Source of the DNA: Diphasiastrum complanatum
Lineage: Eukaryota; Streptophyta; Lycopodiopsida; Lycopodiales; Lycopodiaceae
Assembly (NCBI GenBank): GCA_029204225.1
Contig: CM055099.1
Coordinates: forward strand, 67,759,084 to 67,823,083
Direction: 5' to 3'
DNA: 64,000 bases
Shown piece by piece: positions 4,616 through 43,999 of the stretch. The stretch's first letter is position 1, and the number at the start of each line of letters is the position of its first letter. The notes under the pieces were generated by a model. It did not search any database. It was not told where the DNA came from and worked only from the letters and a program-made list of their open reading frames with translations. Position numbers and translations under genes: made by a program.

Positions 4616-4619
4616 ATAA

Positions 4620-7600
4620 AGATATTCCATTGGAAGATAAGAAAAAATTCATGTACTACTTCACCAAAGGGGTTCAACAACACAAAGCTTTCGGAGCTTT
4701 TTATTCATTTAGCTAAGAAGCGTGGCAGGGGAGACTCACAATTCAAAGTTCAAAGAAGATTGCTTATTGATCAACCAGATGAGGATGAGGAAGAAGGTTT
4801 TGTGAATGTACTTGTAAAGGAGATGGATATGTCTTGTTCTACTTTCATTCTGAATGAGACTATGATAAAGATTAGACCTTGCCAAGATGAGGCCATCAAA
4901 GCCTATTTTGATAAAGCTCTAGTTACACTGGTGTGTAGTTATGAAACATATTTTTATTCGTGTTTGTTTACATTTGTTTCATGCTTAGCATAGTTGTTAC
5001 TAAATATAAAAATTTTTAAACTTTGAGGTAAAAGCCTTTACTCATTATATTTTAAACTTGATTTTTGTTTCTATCCGGAGCATGAAGCAATGGTTCTAGC
5101 TGCTATTGTTGAGGGGAAAGATCCGGTCTATTCATTATGGAGTTCAAAGTCTTCTCCCACTAGACCTAAGTCACGTCCAAAGATCATGGCTACACATTAC
5201 CATAAGTCCATCTCGTCTACTGAAAGCAAAAAAGCCACAACCGAACCATCTATGTCGCTACCTTGTGCATCTATCCGCCCTTTACAAGACAGCTCTGAAC
5301 TTGCCAAATTAGGAGAAGATATTCATAAAACAAAAAAAAAAAACAACTTTGATTTTAGATATAAATCAATGTGATAGGCCACCTGTAGACCCAATCACAG
5401 GAGGCAGGCCAATGGAAGTAAGAGAACCGAATGAAACACATGTACATAATTTAAAAATAAAATTTAAAGATCATACACAGGCCATAGTTACTCTTGTTGT
5501 TTTGGTTGATCCTAACGAATGCAACGATGTTGCAAGTTTTAATTTTTCTTTAATAGATTCATATCATTTTTTTGTTCTTGGGAGAATACACAGTTTACAA
5601 GCCCGGAAACAATTATCTTAAGAGTATTCCCATATTCCAACCTTTTGAACTGTGAGTGCCATTGCATTTGTTGGCGTGACAGTGGAAGACACAAAATTAT
5701 TGGCTTGGGACCACAATATTGATAAGGACTACCAGATGAAGATGACCGTGATAGAAAGAATTCGATTTTTTCACAAAGAATACATGAGAGTCTCCAAAGT
5801 AGGAGATGTGAATCAACTTCAGCTGAAAGCACTCTATGCTCAAGAGACATGCCTGTCTTTTATTCGAAAAATCCTACGCAGAGCCTTACAAAATATGATA
5901 ATTTTTTTCAGCTTGCTTTTCGCAGTGGCCAGGTATTTGTTTTGCTATGCTCGTCATGGAATGCTCTGGTCATAATATATGTTGTAATCCTTTTAAATTG
6001 TTTTTATCAAACTAAAGTTTTGAACTCAATTTTAATACTCCCTAAATTCCTTATCAAATAATTTTTTTTTTTCTTTAGGTGTGGGCCCTTGTTGATAAAT
6101 TTTTTGATAAATGAGAAACTTTTCAAATAAAAGGCCAACCTGCTCAGGGTGCCTCAAAGTCAGAGAAAAAAGTTGTGAGCACTCAAACTCTAAAGCCAAT
6201 TCCTATAGAAATGAGAATATCAGAGTGGAAGAATATACAAGGGATTAGCTCTTTAGAGCTAATAATAAGTCTTCTTTCTAGAGTTGTCGATGGTCAACTT
6301 TCTCTAGTAGAAATGCTGAAAGAATTTCGAAGGTAATAGTCATAATCTAAATATTTATTTTCATGTTACCTTTTGTAATAAAATGATTTTCCTGATTTTG
6401 TTGGATTTTTAACAATTATACTTTTTAAATGCAGGCATAAATTATTTATGAAAGTTGAAGAAGCCCTTGTGACAGGGTTAAATTGTCAAGATTTTGAAGA
6501 GTGCCGGAGGCTTTATCCTCTGAGCAGCTGAAATGAATCTTTGAGTCCATTTTTAATTTTGTTTAGAGACATGGTATTTATTTCATCCATGCTTAGCATA
6601 GGTGCTTATTAATTGTTTCTTTTTTATATTTTATGTCTCCTATGCTAAGCATAGCTTTTCTTTTATATAATTATTTCTTTTTTATACTTTAAGTCTTCTA
6701 TTCTATTTTATATTTTGTGTCTCCCATGCTAAGCATAGCTTTTTCTTTTTCAGTCTCCCGAAGATAAGAAAAACAAAGTCCATTCAGAGCAATTCAAGAG
6801 ACATATTCTGAAAGCAAAAGCAGAGAAAAGGGACAAGGAGAGATTGGCACAGGGTGAGACCATTGCAGAGAAGGATCCATTAGATACCTATCTTCCCAAA
6901 AGTGTCGATGATCAACCATGCTTTTACAGAGAAATTTCAAAAATTTTCAAAAAAAGGCCTTATACACTCTACATCGGCGATATACTATATGGATTTCAGA
7001 TGAAGGAATCATTAAATGATGATTCTCCTTTCAAATTCACTAAAATCCATAGTTTTATGCAGGGTTTTCTTGAAGTCACAACTTCTCCAATTTGGAGAGT
7101 TGTTATTTTTCATTCTTCTTGGCAGTCAGCTTCAGTAAAGAAAGCTCTACTAACTTTCTGTAATGCGGGAATAGAGAATGCTATGTTGTAAGCTTTTAAG
7201 TTCCTGAATTATTAATTCGTATCTTAATTCATATTTTAATTTTAAATTTTCTATTTTCAAGTTAAAATTTTAAACTTATTTTTCTTGTAATGCTCCATGT
7301 CAGGTACAAGCCCAATGTCATGAACTCGGAAGGAGCTCGACTTTGCAATGAAATAGAATACATAACCATCGGTTATTATTCTTTGGATGGCAAACGTTTG
7401 ATGCTTCATTACAACACTTTCAGACTAACAAGTTTTGGAAACTTGTTCCAATATCCAACCGTGACAAAGAAATTAAAGAATCCAATGACGGGTTTCGGGG
7501 CTTGTTCCTACCAAAAGCCACAACAATTAATTAATCATTTAATTGATATTTTTTCTCACCCAGCTGATTGGGTTTTGGATTTATTTAGCGGTAGTGACAC

Positions 7601-7934
7601 TACGAGCGCATGTGCTGTTTAGAAAGGCAGACATGTTGCTGCAGTAGATTTAGATACTAATTCAGTTGATTTTGTAAAAATGAGAATGAAAGATATTTCA
7701 GTTTTGCCAGATGAATTATCTGAGGTGGGAAAGAGTTTAGATAGCGAGAATTCAGTAATTCCCTTGTCCAAGGAACCTCAGTCTCCTGCTAGCGGAAAAG
7801 TAGGCGACACAGGAGAATTTGCTGATGTCTTGGTTCAATATTACAATGTGGTTACGGTAGTCGAGGAAATTGTAGAAGAGGTGTCACTTGAAAGTAAAAT
7901 GGCTACTCAAGAAAAATTAAAAAGATGTAAATGA
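4620..7934 (+). pseudogene. Decayed six-exon gene: ParB-like domain plus DNA N4/N6-methylase domain
   Basis: Predicted exons: ~4620-4930, 5081-5932, 6079-6332, 6435-6573, 6754-7187, 7304-7934. All five introns are GT-AG and their phases agree (0, 0, 2, 0, 2). Exon 2 carries DINQCDRPPVDP, FNFSLIDSYHFFVLG, IHSLQAR and LLAWDHNIDKDYQ, resembling a ParB-type domain (a GGNH-like box here reads GRIH). Exons 5-6 form a beta-order DNA methyltransferase: motif IV position reads GDILYGF where DPPYG is usual, followed later by KPQQLINHL and motif I LDLFSGSDTT (usual DxFxGSGTT), then HVAAVDLD. Breaks: a frameshift at the A-run near 5330-5342, stops at 5619, 5646, 6112, 6529 and 7620, and another frameshift between 5850 and 5930. 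About 840 codons remain. Neighbours are Copia fragments. The methylase call is firm; the ParB call is tentative. Confidence 0.75.
6632..6753 (+). repeat. Duplicated intron 3' end with palindrome
   Basis: Inside the intron 6574-6753, the stretch 'tgtctcctatgctaagcat' plus 'agctttt' (from 6635) is repeated from about 6719 as 'tgtctcccatgctaagcat' plus 'agcttttt', running into the polypyrimidine tract and splice acceptor. Both contain the palindrome ATGCTAAGCAT. Two related copies, ATGCTTAGCAT, sit at 6589 in the same intron and at 4981 in the first intron. Confidence 0.8.
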
Positions 7935-8205
7935 CCTCGCGATTTTTGGGAATAAAAAATTTTCTTTTGTTTTAAAGAATAATTGCGTTTATATTTCTTA
8001 ACGTATTGTGTTTTGAGTTCTTTTTTATTGATTTAATGTTCTTAAGTCTATTTTTTAACGATTTAAAATTAAGAATTTGAAATATTTTAAAAATTTTAAC
8101 ATTGATAATCATTACCAAAAATTTAAAATTGTAACGATTTGTCAAGTTTATAATATTTTAATTAGATGTATTTTTATAATATCTTTTGTAAAAAAAATAT
8201 TGTTA
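7935..8205. other. AT-rich stretch, no gene seen
   Basis: Follows the stop codon of the methylase-type gene. It is strongly AT-rich and may hold that gene's former 3' end. I see no open frame or recognisable element before Copia gag sequence begins on the minus strand. Confidence 0.6.
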
Positions 8206-8905
8206 GAAATTTTACTGGCTTGCTCATGAAATTGTTGAAATGATCCTCGACTTGAGTTTTCTCTTCTCGATTGGTACTTTCCACAGCCAAATCTTCTGCC
8301 TCATCCTCTGATTGCAAGAGCTTGATCATAGCCCCTGTTACGATGATTCAAGTTCTCTTGACGTTGCTCTTTTTGCAAAAGCAATCCACCTAGTTCTTCA
8401 TAGTTGGAAGATTCTCCCGTGTGGCAATGCTTGTCACAAACATCTGATGTGACTCACTCAAGTTGTTCAATGTCAATTGAACAATCTCATGATCCTATAC
8501 TCGCTCTCCAACGATAGCTAGTTGATCACAGATCTCCTTTACCTTCAATAGGTGATGGGCAATGGTTGCACCATCATCCATTCGTAATGTATTGTGCAGC
8601 TTCATCTTCAGAAATAGTATTCGAGATGTGTTTGTCGTTTCAAACAATGCCTTCAATGTATCCCACGTTTCTTTTGGTCCTTTCGAATCTGAAATGTATG
8701 AAATGATAGCATCTCTGACTGACAAGTTGATGACATTCTGTGCTTTCCATTTTCTCTTGTCAAATGCCCGCTGATCTTCTTCAATCATTGGCCTTGACTC
8801 CTCACCTGGCACGATCTCCCATAACTCCTTTTCCATCAAAATGTTCTTCAGTTTGAATTTCCAAACTGCATAGTTGCCGACTCCTTCCAATTTGCTTGAC
8901 TCATT
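8206..8905 (-). pseudogene. Copia gag fragment
   Basis: Read on the minus strand, 8890-8495 encodes a UBN2-type Copia gag: N-terminal YAVWKFKLKNILMEKELW, then ETWDTLKALFETTNTSR and MKLHNTLRMDDG. Lower coordinates continue the gag C-terminus (EELGGLLLQKEQRQENL) with frame changes and a stop. The fragment ends at about 8206, where the methylase-type gene's AT-rich flank starts, so protease and pol are missing. Confidence 0.85.
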
Positions 8906-17659: not shown

Positions 17660-20658
17660 TTAGCATTTTGGCAAATCAGGAGGTGGTGGAGGCAGAGACT
17701 GGCTTGGGCCAACACCATTGGGAACTAGAAACAGACTTGCAAGCCCCCAGCTTATGTGAATCTCCAAGTGACAGTGCACAAGCCAAATACCTTTTCCACC
17801 AATTCCCACAAAATGCATTCCATCAATAAGCTGATATCAAGTAAGGCTTCAACAAAAGAATGTTCCTTGGAGCACAAAAACTGAACAGCCATTTTAATTT
17901 TTCTAGCACGCAAACACCGGCATAGATATATTGTCACCTTTCTTTCTTCAGATGTTATGAGGAAAAGAGATTTGCTTTATGCGTATATATGTCAAGGTGG
18001 GATGAGCTGATACCTGGATTATCTGCTTTGAAACGGATGGCCGCCCATCCTCCAACCGGTACTGCAATCGTATTGCGCTTAGGAGGATCAACCAAGTTGA
18101 AGCTGGAAGCATTGCTGGGGTTGTAGTTTCCAAATCCCTGACCAACTATGTAGAAACTGTAGCCATGGGAGTGGATAGGATGGCTCTCTGTGCCTTGTAT
18201 ACTGGTGTCCTGTAATATAACCTGCACATTTGAATTGAATGGGAGGACTACTGCCTTTGTTCCACGATCTGGAGTTTGATTTGTGGGTGGAAGTCCTGTG
18301 TAGTTGAAGGGAAAGGGTGGATTGTCGGGGAAATCACGAGTAAATACACCAGAAATATTGAAAAAGTAGGCTTGAAGAACTGCGATGTCAGGCATAACAA
18401 AGGAGACATTGTTCATGGATGCAGTGAATTTTGTCCTGTTTGGGCCTTGGCAGATGTGATTCTCACCGCAAGGTTTTACTCCAAGACCTACTGTTATAAG
18501 TAGATTTTTGTCTACTGTCTGAGGCACGCTTGCTTGATGCAGTGAGTCAGCCAAACCGCGTAGGCTTGTAGAAAATTTTGTTACAGAATTGGTGTCATTT
18601 GGAATAGGAAATGCTGACAAAACTGGAGCTGCAGCAGCATTGAATAAGCCTTTGTACTCAAGCAGGGCAAGCGTTTGTGTTTTCTGAAAAGAAACATTCT
18701 GGGCAGATATATAAGGACTTCCCCACATATAATAGCGGCCAGCAGGCTGATCTGTAGAAAGGAGCACATTCGTAGTCTGGCCTGGTGCCAACACAATTTT
18801 GTCTGTAGCATAAGGCTTGATGTAGTCTCCATCGACCTCAACAACGGTCAGATTGTGCTTGGAGACCGAGAAAAACAAGTCAGTGTTCAGGGCAGCGTTG
18901 ATGACACGGAGAAGGTAGGTCTTTTGTGGAAAAACCTTCAAAACATAAACATCTGAGGCATTCACGAATCAGTTGCAATAAGAATAAGGCCATTACATCT
19001 ATCCAAGGTTGACGCATCCCAACTTTCAAGAGGTCACAGAAGTAATCAGATTGCAATGAGAACAAAAAAAATTCGGTCTCTTTCAAAATAAGTTGGATAG
19101 GTAGTAAGACGGGCCTACTTGTAGCAACTCACAACAATAATGCTCTCGAAAAGTTTCAACTAGTTATAACTATATCTGAAAGATCGTGCTTCTCTTCTTG
19201 CGAGAGAAGACATCTCCTAATTCTAGTTCTGTGCTCAAGTTGATTAGCTTTGATTCGGTAGTCAAGTCATATGAATTATATACCGATGATGGCAAAACAG
19301 TATAAAAAATCATGTCAATCCTTTATTTGAAATCATCAGTGCACGAATGCTACCGATGAAGAAAAAGCAGAGGACGTACAGAAGCCGTGTTATAAGAATT
19401 AGCCTTGTCAGACCTTTTTGGGAGCAATTGTAGAGGGGTCCAGGCCAGCCATTGATCGTGTAAGCATCCGGCACTGCCGGGGGACCGCCACTCAATAGCG
19501 CTCGACTTTCCACCTCTTCAACATTGGCATTCCACCACTCCCCTGTGGCATCAATACGTGATGTGCTACCGAGAACAGACAACCAGAAATTCTCATATCC
19601 GCATTCTTATTCAAATGACAGATCAATTAGTACTGCAACGTTCTGAGTAGATCATAGAGTTAGATACTTGCCCAGAATTATAACGTGTTCTTTATAAGGG
19701 AACTTAAAGGGATAGGAAGTTCCGGACTGAGGGAAGATGACAATTGCTCCATAGACTGTTCCTCTTAGCCATGTAGCATGCGCATGCCAGAGTAAAGTCC
19801 CACTCTGCTTTGTTAGCGTAAAGTTGTATACGAACGACTGGCCTGTTTGCAAGGGACATTGTGTCACGTACACAGGTCCATCTGACCATCCGCTTAAGAG
19901 CTGACGAACTCCATGCCTGGATCGTTAACTACATTAGTAAGTAGCTGATATTGACGCTTAAACTAGGACTCCTTGCTCAGAAGGCAATGTACATTGAGAT
20001 TATTAGTGGTTGATTACTAGTAGACTACAAAACTAAAGCATATCTAATGACACATCTCATCTATGAACTCAGGATGAGAAGCCTATATAGATAATATGAT
20101 TCAGATTTGAGGATAAGAGCAAAGCGTGGTACTCACCACCGATTAATTGTTGTACATTGTGCTTTCAAGTCAATGAAAACATCCATAAAGTGCAAAGCGA
20201 AAATAACACGATTTCTCAAAAGCTACTATTAGCTCACCAATGAATGGTGATGTTGTATTCTGCGCTGTTAGTGACGTTCACGAGAATGCGATCGCCTTCA
20301 TTGGCATAGAGTGTTGGTCCGGGATACATCCCATTCACTGAAACAAGAGATTTAGTTTTGCAGACGCGCGTTACCGAGAGTGGTTTAACCTGCACAAATA
20401 AACAAGAGAATCAAACCTCAGCTACTCATGCGCTTTATACAAGAAAAACAAAGAGTGCCAGGATAGCATGATCTTACTTACAGTGAAGTTATACACTCTT
20501 GTTGTACTTGCGTCTAAGCACCCAGCATGGCAGAGCAGGGCGAGAGCAAGAAAAAGGTTTCCAATGGCACGTCTCGACACTACTGCATTTAAACATCCAA
20601 AAAGCACTACCCCTTCCCCGGCTGTCTTTCGGATTTTGGAATGCTTGTAGGGATCCAT
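17660..20658 (-). CDS. LAC: Laccase (multicopper oxidase), six exons, apparently intact
   Basis: Exons on the minus strand: 20658-20482, 20389-20238, 19916-19672, 19542-19414, 18952-18014, 17790-17660. Together they make 1773 bases, 590 codons plus stop, with no stops or frame breaks. The first exon has a hydrophobic signal segment ([17 protein letters not shown]) after an N-terminal extension. All four copper ligand blocks are present: HWHGVRQ...DGP (exon 2/3 junction), [34 protein letters not shown] and [13 protein letters not shown], the last with Leu at the axial type 1 position. It ends [10 protein letters not shown], as plant laccases do. Exon sizes 152/245/129 match the usual plant laccase pattern. 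The enzyme would be secreted to the cell wall, oxidising phenolics or monolignols with reduction of oxygen to water. Several N-x-S/T sites suggest glycosylation. One intron uses a GC donor. Confidence 0.94.
19543..19671 (-). other. GC-AG intron of the laccase gene
   Basis: The intron between exons 3 and 4 starts G|GCAAGTAT and ends CCACAG|GG. Only the GC donor joins ATT CTG G to GG GAG TGG TGG and so restores the conserved ILGEWWN block; the nearby GT (19668-19667 region) would break it. The other four introns start with GT. Confidence 0.82.
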
Positions 20659-31800: not shown

Positions 31801-32371
31801 TGGAGGGTGCTAGTACAATACGCAGGCTGCAGGCCATACATCCACATGTGTAAAGCATTTTGCATGATTGTCATGAAGAGCTTTCTTCCAAACACACCAT
31901 CCTTTGCATGCTTGAAGAAGATCCTTGATCCTAAGGCCTTCTCCTCATTGTTGTGGCTCCTCTTTGGAAAAATCTTAAGGCCTCTGTGCTTCCTTTTGAT
32001 CACAAAGATCATCCATGCCAATATACCTAGTCCACAAATGTTTACTACTAGTATTTTGCATTATTTCTCTAAGCTTGTAATCAACATAACTAAGCTTAGA
32101 TCCAATGAGGCCAAATGTCTTTCTATGGAGATCAGTGTATGTTGGGGGTTATTCACTTATGCTCATACAAAGCTCACAATATTTTTCTATGAATGTGCAG
32201 TTACAACAATCCAACTTATGGATGAAAAAATCATACTTGCTTCTAAAACACACAAGAGCAAGTAGATGGAAGAACCACCATTCATACCAATTATTAAATA
32301 TATAATCAACATTCATTCTTAACTCCAAAGTCACATGCTGGCATAGCAAAATTGAGATAATGTGCCCATCC

Positions 32372-32837
32372 TGTAGGAAAAATAGTAATTATTCTTCCAC
32401 AGAGAACACGATGCAAGTTCGAATAAATCAAACTAATGTCAGTGTCTTCAATCGCGATTTTATCTAATCTATGTACTAATAGAACAGTATTTAGTCTGAC
32501 TGAATATGTGTGCAAAAATTATATTCGGAAGTAAGATACTATTTGGAGAAGTATGAGACAATTCAAGACCATTTAGACAATAAGAAACTATTCATCAAAA
32601 ATGAATTTTTATAACTCTGAATCTGATTGATTAATATATATCTCTTGTTGTCTTATCTCGTTGTTGTGTCTCTAATTGAGTTAGTTACAATGAGTAGTGC
32701 ATATGTATTCTTATTGCTACAGGACAGGTCTTTTGGCCTTTTATTTATAGGTCTTTTGGCCTTTTAATACTATAACAGTAGAAATCTAACCGTTTACGAC
32801 GGTTGATATTCAAATAGACGCTCTATTTCCAGGCTTC
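32372..32837 (-). repeat. Copia family A 3' LTR, truncated
   Basis: About 465 bases matching 35936-36365 with many substitutions; shared runs include 'attcttccacagagaaca', 'tcagtgtcttcaatcgcgattt', 'caggtcttttggcc' and 'gttgatattcaaatag'. It carries an extra 'tcttttggccttttatttatagg' duplication near 32738. It joins RT sequence directly at about 32838, so its outer U3 part and the end of pol were deleted together. Confidence 0.85.
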
Positions 32838-35934: not shown

Positions 35935-35935
35935 C

Positions 35936-36850
35936 TATAAGAAAAATAGCAATCATTCTTCCACAGAGAACATGATGCAAGTTCAAATAAATCAAACTAA
36001 TATCAGTGTCTTCAATCGCGATTTAATCTGATCTATGTACTAATAGAGCATTATTTATTCTGACTAAATATGCATGCAAAAATTATATGCGAAAGTAAAA
36101 TACTATATGTGGAAGTATGAGACAACCCAAAACCATTTAGACAATAAGAAACGATTGATCAAAAATGAATTTTTATAAATTTGAATCTGATTCATCAATA
36201 TACATCTCGATGTTGTGTCTCTGATTGAGTTAGTTACAACGAGTAATGGATATGTATTTATATTGCTATAGGACAGGTCTTTTGGCCTTTTAATACTATT
36301 AATCTAGAAATCTAACTGTTTATGATGGTTGATATTCAAATAGATGCTCTATTTTCAGGCTCGAATAAATTCTGTTCGTGAATATTTCACGATAGTCTGT
36401 CTCCTCATTTCAGCTTCGTGTTTTGCAAATTGTTCGCGACACTTGTCTCTTTGTGACATTTTTGTCATTCGCAAATTGTTTGTGACAGATGACAATTCTT
36501 GAGCTTGAAGGAAGCTAGAATATTTTGCGAACTGTTTGAGATAGTTTTGCGATAGGTGAGCTTGAAGAACAATCCAGAAGATTTTGCGAATTGTTCATGA
36601 CATCTGAGGCTTGAACAAGAAACAGAAAATTTCGCGACAAGATTCTATTTGCGAATCTTTCGAACTTCAACAAGAAAGCCACAATCTTCCACAATAGACT
36701 GTTTCACGAATCTTTCACGAATCTTTTGAGTTGACTGCAAGACAAATTTCGCGAATCCTTCACAAAAATTTTTGAGTTGGTAACGAATAGAAAAGTTTCG
36801 AGTTCACGTTCATTTCTTTCTCATCCTTTGTTAAATAAACTATGCTCTTT
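35936..36850 (-). repeat. Copia family A 5' LTR
   Basis: The part 35936-36365 pairs with the truncated 3' LTR at 32372-32837. The rest (36366-36800) is full of gcgaa/ttcgcga/cacgaat words, as in 1800-1990 and 50090-50260, showing that this repeat-rich block lies in the U3 part of family A LTRs. The outer end near 36850 is approximate. Confidence 0.72.
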
Positions 36851-43130: not shown

Positions 43131-43379
43131 ATTTCTTATCATAAATGCAAGTTGATTGGTGGGTGATTCCCTAGCTACTTTGTATCAACAAGTCATATGG
43201 TCATTCATTACTACACAGATTGAAAAGTCTGACTCTACAAATTTGACATTTGTTTTTGTGCATCTTCTATTGTGCCTAGATCTATATTTAGGATTATTTT
43301 GGATCTTAAATTTTCATAAACACTGCCATCACATTTTGTGAGGGTGCCAAAGAATTCAAATAAGGCAAATTTTATTCAA

Positions 43380-43830
43380 GTCCAATTGGTTTGGGCTCTT
43401 ATATTCAATGGCACTTTGTAGTCTAAAGTGTAATTCAATTATCCAGACTAATGAGTGATTCAATTATCCATACTTATGGTAATGGTCACTTTAATCATCC
43501 AGACTTGTCCATTACCATCATTCATAAAATAATAGCTAAATTTGATAATAGTTTTCTCAAGATTCTCTATTTGCAACTTGATAGTATTGGTCATGAAAAC
43601 AAAAATCAGATTGTGTTGGCATATTTGTCGATGTTGGTTGCTTTGAAAATTTTCAATAAAATCAAAATAGGATTCTTATTAGTGGGTCACACTCATGTTC
43701 ATATTGACCAAATGTTTAGCAACTTTTTCAGAAAGCTAAGATGCAAAAAAGGCTTTTCTTTACCAATATTATAGAGTATTATTGAGGAGTCCTACACCCC
43801 TAAATCAAATGTGTTATTATTATGATGCAC
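43380..43830 (+). pseudogene. Fragment resembling a DUF7869-type transposon-associated protein
   Basis: The open frame 43451-43774 contains ILYLQLDSIGHENKNQIVLA, FNKIKIGFLLVGHTHVHIDQ and MFSNFF. The pattern QLD-x(n)-ENKNxx-VxAxLxxLV-x(n)-FLxVGHTHxxIDQMFS is one I associate with the DUF7869 family found near mobile elements in plants and other eukaryotes; it recalls an RNase H-like fold, but this is from memory. No partner domains are visible. Confidence 0.5.
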
Positions 43831-43999
43831 ATTTGATTTTAGATATTACATCAAAATGTTTGAACAACACTACATACACAATTAACGATGTCAATTTTTA
43901 GCATCAATTCAAAATTAAAACACATTTATTAGATCCAAGCTGGGTATTGTACAGACTATATTGCTCAGACATGTGTGGGATCATCAAACTTTGTTTGGT

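Follow-up and report, generated by a model that had tools for sequence, protein, structure and literature searches.

Enzymes that act on DNA marks are already known to travel on transposons. Fungal TET/JBP DNA transposons bring a DNA-modifying enzyme, a dioxygenase that oxidizes 5-methylcytosine (5mC), together with transposases of named superfamilies (PMC12730594), and in the genomes of large viruses a few Mariner elements unite a Tc/mariner transposase with an endonuclease and a DNA methyltransferase (PMC3627910). In a bdelloid rotifer, N4CMT is a bacterial-type PF01555 methylase with introns, a host gene with a chromodomain that counts transposons among its targets, and the land plant Marchantia has a bacterial-type DNA amino-methylase for N4-methylcytosine (4mC), which is recently duplicated, is without extra domains and serves sperm formation (both according to PMC8885841). 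In phages, N6_N4 methylases preceded by an N-terminal ParB domain are reported (PMC12704722). Here we analyze a stretch of 64,000 nucleotides from the clubmoss Diphasiastrum complanatum (assembly GCA_029204225.1, contig CM055099.1, positions 67,759,084 to 67,823,083, forward strand), referred to below as the window, and conclude that its positions 4619-8214 are very probably a truncated member, now dead, of a DNA transposon family, whose DUF7869 protein would move the element and whose methylase would modify the element's own DNA.

Like the fungal and viral elements, the clubmoss element places a DNA-modifying enzyme beside a putative transposase in a single unit; however, its enzyme is not a dioxygenase, its methylase belongs to another family than those of the viral Mariner elements, and its carrier is neither fungal nor viral. 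In contrast to the rotifer enzyme, it is encoded by the transposon itself, and its likeness to the Marchantia enzyme is drawn from the description of the latter only. The N-terminal domain that precedes the methylase recalls the phage fusions, yet a ParB identity is not supported for it and no close phage relative was found in the searches reported below. With CcrM (6pbd) and other beta-order N6_N4 methylases the clubmoss protein shares the PF01555 match, the order of motif IV before motif I and a KPQ block, whereas its motif IV of the form D-I/A-P-Y (in most of the plant relatives read), its introns, its extra N-terminal domain and its transposon carrier set it apart.

We document here the anatomy of the element, its ends, target duplications, copy number, palindromic sites and plant relatives. 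In the genome of D. complanatum (1.74 Gb, 5176 contigs) the protein of exons 5 and 6 has at least 247 matches, a lower bound obtained with 150 of 3953 first-look candidates scored. Twenty copies were compared with the window, the upstream stretches being examined for six, and they align with it in introns as well as in exons, the identity of most aligned pieces being 82-91%; one of them, L023, represents a divergent subfamily at 69%. Across the region running from exon 4 through the intron to exon 5, 17 copies differ from one another by a median of 9.2%. The DNA match to the window begins at 4619 in 6 of the 20 copies and ends at 8209-8214 in 11, and other copies extend past it in both directions. 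The DUF7869 gene, the palindrome array and the left end, which together form the outer left part, as well as the right end, are present in other copies only, and reading frames of Copia type (labeled by eye) adjoin both breaks of the window copy. Independent copies share inverted ends of 11 bp, AACACGATGAC on the left and AACATGATGAC (given as the complement) on the right, with 10 of 11 bases paired, and these ends are bordered by 4-bp target duplications that are perfect for ATGT, AACT and CCTT and agree at three of four positions for GTAA/ATAA, two loci on C17 being counted once as one insertion. One end is degraded or was not found at C5, C16 and C18 and in copies E12, E20 and E26; the right end of the C18 copy lies outside the stretch examined, so that its duplication was not read. 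Among the 40 candidate left ends scored, of 1002, 19 are identical over 88 nt. The full element measures about 7.1 to 8.2 kb, inserts excluded, and consists of the DUF7869 gene on one strand, a six-exon methylase gene on the other and the palindrome array between them, all enclosed by the inverted ends.

The methylase is recognized by several lines of evidence. Exon 6 alone matches N6_N4_Mtase (PF01555) at E 7.9e-11 and 42.8 bits, and exons 5 and 6 together at E 2.3e-12 and 47.8 bits, both above the curated cut-off of 26.7 bits, and the best solved relative in a PDB search is CcrM (6pbd, E 4.1e-7). The initial annotation had read a beta-order DNA amino-methylase here, surviving as a spliced plant relic, and this reading is correct: a motif IV-like block, located by eye, comes before YQKPQQLINHL (7509-7541), which in turn comes before the motif I block. 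The window copy is mutated in both motifs, with DILY in place of the DIPY of most other copies and the D-A-P-Y of Adiantum, and with FSGSD in place of the FSGSG commonest in copies. ADIPYGF or ADAPYGF is found in many of the plant relatives read, from which Chara and the Ginkgo-type protein deviate.

On the plus strand, the reading frames over 4619-7934 resolve into six coding pieces with five GT...AG introns between them, the layout first proposed, with borders that read as stated and a broken frame. The span then given was 4620..7934; the repeat begins at 4619 and passes the stop codon to reach about 8214. In 21 aligned rows, the window plus 20 genomic copies, GT...AG is found in 6, 9, 16, 18 and 9 rows for introns 1 to 5, respectively, and the rows that lack it are explained by deletions, truncation or mutated splice sites, so that the introns predicted for the window gene are backed by other genomic copies. 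Since adjoining matches of exons 5 and 6 had suggested intron loss, a retrocopy was considered and dropped, the alignment showing deletions that span the junction. The window gene is dead, because it has five in-frame stops and its frame also changes within exon 1 and within exon 2 (Table 1); a protein search with its full-length decayed version gave no match at E 1 among the 7996 candidates scored. In exon 3, 9 of the 16 rows that could be aligned, the divergent L023 among them, have a stop at the codon that follows FDK (window 6112). Being common to several lineages, this stop may reflect recurrent mutation, read-through or copies complemented in trans.

Upstream of its methylase gene, the element carries a gene for a DUF7869 protein (PF25273, E 8.7e-42) on the opposite strand. 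Linkage of the two genes was counted over 138 methylase places among the matches listed (with the exons belonging to a single gene joined by eye), 150 DUF7869 places (150 of 2953 candidates scored) and 40 left ends. An opposite-strand DUF7869 gene is found 4.9-6.1 kb upstream at 6 of the 138 methylase places, the two on C17 being one duplicated insertion, where 0.19 pairs within 8 kb would be expected by chance (some chromosome sizes were guessed); one further opposite-strand pair, 18 kb apart, was excluded from the count. At three other places of the 138 (C6:63469126, C6:63678718 and C12:6351820) DUF7869 is found on the same strand, 4.37 kb downstream. This constant placing is a different arrangement of the two genes, which we cannot explain. 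Because the DUF7869 gene is placed between the ends of the element and is abundant, its protein is probably the transposase. A search of the open-licence PMC literature found no paper naming DUF7869. The window itself holds a second decayed DUF7869 piece at 43318-43848 on the plus strand (PF25273, 4.1e-28), with 65-73% DNA identity per piece to the DUF7869 gene of the element, which makes it a member of another DUF7869 family.

A profile search retrieved 377 relatives of the methylase, and the 120 listed include proteins of Ceratopteris richardii, Adiantum nelumboides, A. capillus-veneris, the liverwort Calypogeia fissa, Chara braunii and Diphasiastrum, together with Gb_17912, which from its locus prefix we take to be a Ginkgo protein. 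No Marchantia name is among these 120; the Marchantia enzyme is presumably the one that the initial annotation names DN4MT. The Adiantum model P0067 matches the window gene in the order of its exon 2 domain, exon 3 region and methylase, and this order of parts agrees with one Adiantum and one Calypogeia gene model. In a midpoint-rooted tree of 43 rows (40 of the 121 proteins found plus three element rows), 23 rows, comprising all named plants, the alga and some unnamed rows, fall together, with support 100/100, in a group that excludes the other 20. Such a distribution of annotated relatives, in one supported clade of named plants and an alga, is what would be expected if plants had once gained a bacterial methylase as a host gene and the window held a pseudogene of it, multiplied passively inside other repeats. 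We consider this improbable in view of the at least 247 matches in the genome, the recurrent ends and target duplications that enclose both the methylase and DUF7869, the linkage of the two genes in excess of chance and the four matches, among the relatives listed, within a single fern, A. nelumboides. The notion of a host gene acquired once from bacteria thus gives way to a truncated copy of a repeated DNA transposon with a methylase gene beside a DUF7869 gene. Two further Diphasiastrum proteins were noted. P0059, on chromosome 2, represents another methylase lineage of the genome (42% identity across 30% of the query), and P0003, annotated as a channel-like protein (PF07885), ends in about 38 residues that are the start of exon 6 of the element; it is either an annotation chimera or an exonised transposon.

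Methylases of this kind are frequent in large viruses. They are frequent in phages as well (PMC12704722), and both points would fit a remnant of an integrated large DNA virus or a phage-derived stretch. This origin is extremely unlikely. Three scans of IMG/VR viral contigs contained no relative of the methylase or of the DUF7869 protein, no virus structural family rose above the cut-off in a scan of ten reading frames taken from window and copies, and transposon ends with 4-bp duplications are present. The link to phages drawn in the initial annotation is also weak: phage records gave 557 partial matches at E up to 1, with identities below 32% in the 20 listed, and the liverwort (Calypogeia) protein has no phage match at E 1e-3.

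The positions at which copies differ indicate how the protein has been maintained. L023 differs from the majority at 99 of 759 sites in codon positions 1 and 2 and at 167 of 376 third positions (p 2e-30), in a pooled test that covers exons 2b, 3 and 5 (exons 2a and 6 excluded, exons 1 and 4 uncounted). Changes private to single copies are spread evenly, 570 at 781 position-1 and -2 sites and 273 at 388 position-3 sites (p 0.74), as expected for decay after insertion; copy L026 was excluded from the exon 6 and intron columns of these counts. The excess at third positions therefore indicates that the protein, its exon 2 domain included, was functional when the subfamilies split, and, at the level of sequence, shows past purifying selection on the methylase for one divergent subfamily. 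This bears on the idea that the transposon captured the methylase a single time and has since carried it as unused, passive cargo. Gene capture by plant transposons is common, and all 21 copies examined are broken; on the other hand, the codon-position bias between subfamilies and the motifs common across plants show that selection maintained the source genes, so that we regard passive cargo as unlikely.

Between the methylase and DUF7869 genes, and also in introns 1 and 4, are palindromes around TATGCTNAGCATA. The window has four at no more than one mismatch, all in introns, where 0.13 would be expected, and 20 loci (199,820 bp) have 110, compared with 0-2 in five single-base shuffles. The exact 17-mer CCTATGCTNAGCATAGG is found at 2141 genomic places and its reversed control at none. 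In the five copies inspected the array between the genes comprises 7-12 palindromes, and of the 60 spacings below 100 bp in five arrays, 33 are 40-42 bp, 12 are 53-55 bp and 7 are 83-85 bp. Being near 4, 5 and 8 helix turns, these spacings would be compatible with protein binding on one face of the DNA. The divergent L023 retains six palindromes at up to two mismatches. At C1:22799293-22799745 a palindrome array adjoins a DUF7869 match with no listed methylase nearby, and palindrome arrays may belong to several DUF7869 families.

The letter blocks that had been quoted as ParB-like are indeed located in exon 2, but the ParB label itself found no support in any test. Searches of Pfam, NCBIfam and the PDB with the exon 2 domain gave no ParB (PF02195) match, PHROGs returned unnamed families only (E 0.076 or worse), and a phage search with the Adiantum piece gave matches at E 0.6 or worse only, with none annotated as ParB. 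Two AlphaFold models of the domain, built from shallow alignments, have predicted local distance difference test (pLDDT) scores of 36.6 and 36.5 and are unusable. When the box-II arginine of ParB is placed by the box-II pattern, a hand alignment has serine at this place in 8 of 8 sequences, seven copies and an Adiantum protein. In the ParB-CTPase fold this arginine is required for nucleoside triphosphate (NTP) binding (PMC12704722). Given the serine and the absence of a ParB match in these searches, we call the exon 2 part an N-terminal domain of unknown fold. The ParB idea was reasonable, because phage ParB-N6_N4 fusions are reported (PMC12704722), although it is still not supported. If exon 2 did encode a genuine NTP switch of ParB type, and this bound the palindrome array in the way that parS is bound by ParB, the element would carry a partition-like or clamp system. 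The regular spacing of palindromic sites between the two genes, the order of blocks around VLGGIHSLQARKQL and LLAWDHNID, and the phage fusions speak for such a switch; with the profile searches, the serine and the unusable models set against them, we consider it rather unlikely.

Table 1. Positions of the truncated element copy and its parts in the window.
Feature	Position	Strand	Remarks
Truncated, decayed transposon copy	4619..8214	+	Exon 1 without start through 3' flank of methylase gene; outer left part and right end missing
Exon 1	4619..4930	+	5' part absent; one frame change; frames read; collinear with copy L026
Palindrome CATGCTTAGCATA	4980..4992	.	Intron 1; window palindrome scan
Exon 2 (earlier "ParB-like" part)	5081..5932	+	Stops 5619, 5646; two frame changes; 31-35% similar to Adiantum P0067
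Exon 3	6079..6332	+	Stop 6112; collinear with P0067 and P0009, judged by eye
Exon 4	6435..6573	+	Stop 6529; alignment of copies
Palindrome	6588..6600	.	Intron 4; window palindrome scan
Palindrome TATGCTAAGCATA	6641..6653	.	Intron 4; window palindrome scan
Palindrome	6725..6737	.	Intron 4; window palindrome scan
Exon 5	6754..7187	+	First part of methylase domain; holds motif IV-like block
Motif IV-like block GDILYGF	6976..6996	+	Mutated in window; commonest in other copies ADIPYGF
Exon 6	7304..7934	+	Remaining methylase domain and tail; stop 7620; PF01555 7.9e-11
Motif I block LDLFSGSDTTS	7575..7607	+	Commonest among relatives DLFSGSGTTS

In the mechanism that we propose, the DUF7869 protein would cut and paste the element, and the methylase would be retained because it is useful to the element, most likely by adding 4mC or N6-methyladenine (6mA) to the element's own DNA. 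The palindromes at regular spacing would possibly be binding or modification sites, and self-modification would control transcription, silencing or transposition of the element. Several points weigh against this account. The genome had been inferred to have had, or still to have elsewhere, an intact copy: copies are very many, and none of the 21 examined, which were picked for similarity to the window and not for intactness, has open exons throughout (judged over exons 2b to 6). Present activity of the methylase is thus putative, as are its roles in methylation and transcription. The transposase role of DUF7869 is likewise putative, drawn from the placing and abundance of its gene. The codon test depends on one divergent copy, L023; its bias is weaker in exon 2a (42 of 127 first and second positions versus 39 of 63 third positions), and its exon 6 is unalignable and patternless (45, 55 and 57 of about 116 each). 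Among the palindrome clusters, 12 are listed on C1, and 10 of them are near no listed methylase or DUF7869 place, with both lists of places being partial. Finally, the canonical catalytic motif IV follows D/N/S-P-P-Y/F/W; compared with D-P-P-Y, the family motif D-I/A-P-Y retains D, P and Y and is altered in the second residue.

Three features of the window lie outside the element. Direct repeats spaced about 840-860 bp, 94-98% identical, occupy positions 1-1571; an open frame of 337 residues on the minus strand (17958-18968) resembles a plant laccase by eye; and direct repeats at 32371-32835 and 35935-36361, 89-91% identical and about 3.5 kb apart, flank Copia-like frames and are likely a pair of long terminal repeats.

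In the open-licence PMC literature, preprints and Repbase apart, we came across no description of plant DNA transposons that carry a bacterial-type amino-methylase in high copy. A broader proposal, which we offer tentatively and hold to be possible rather than probable, is that a widespread plant transposon lineage writes its own mark other than 5mC, namely 4mC or 6mA placed on or close to the helically spaced palindromes between the two genes, to which the N-terminal domain or the DUF7869 protein would bind. The palindromes provide a concrete, testable target, with 2141 exact sites in one assembled genome. If the methylase of the element modifies DNA, vascular plants would have in it a natural source of 4mC or 6mA, which would bear on the debate over such marks. 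If the proposal is true, DUF7869 elements would form a transposase group not yet named in the literature searched, and a selfish epigenetic system, open to recruitment for host uses, would be present in clubmosses, ferns, liverworts, Chara and Ginkgo.

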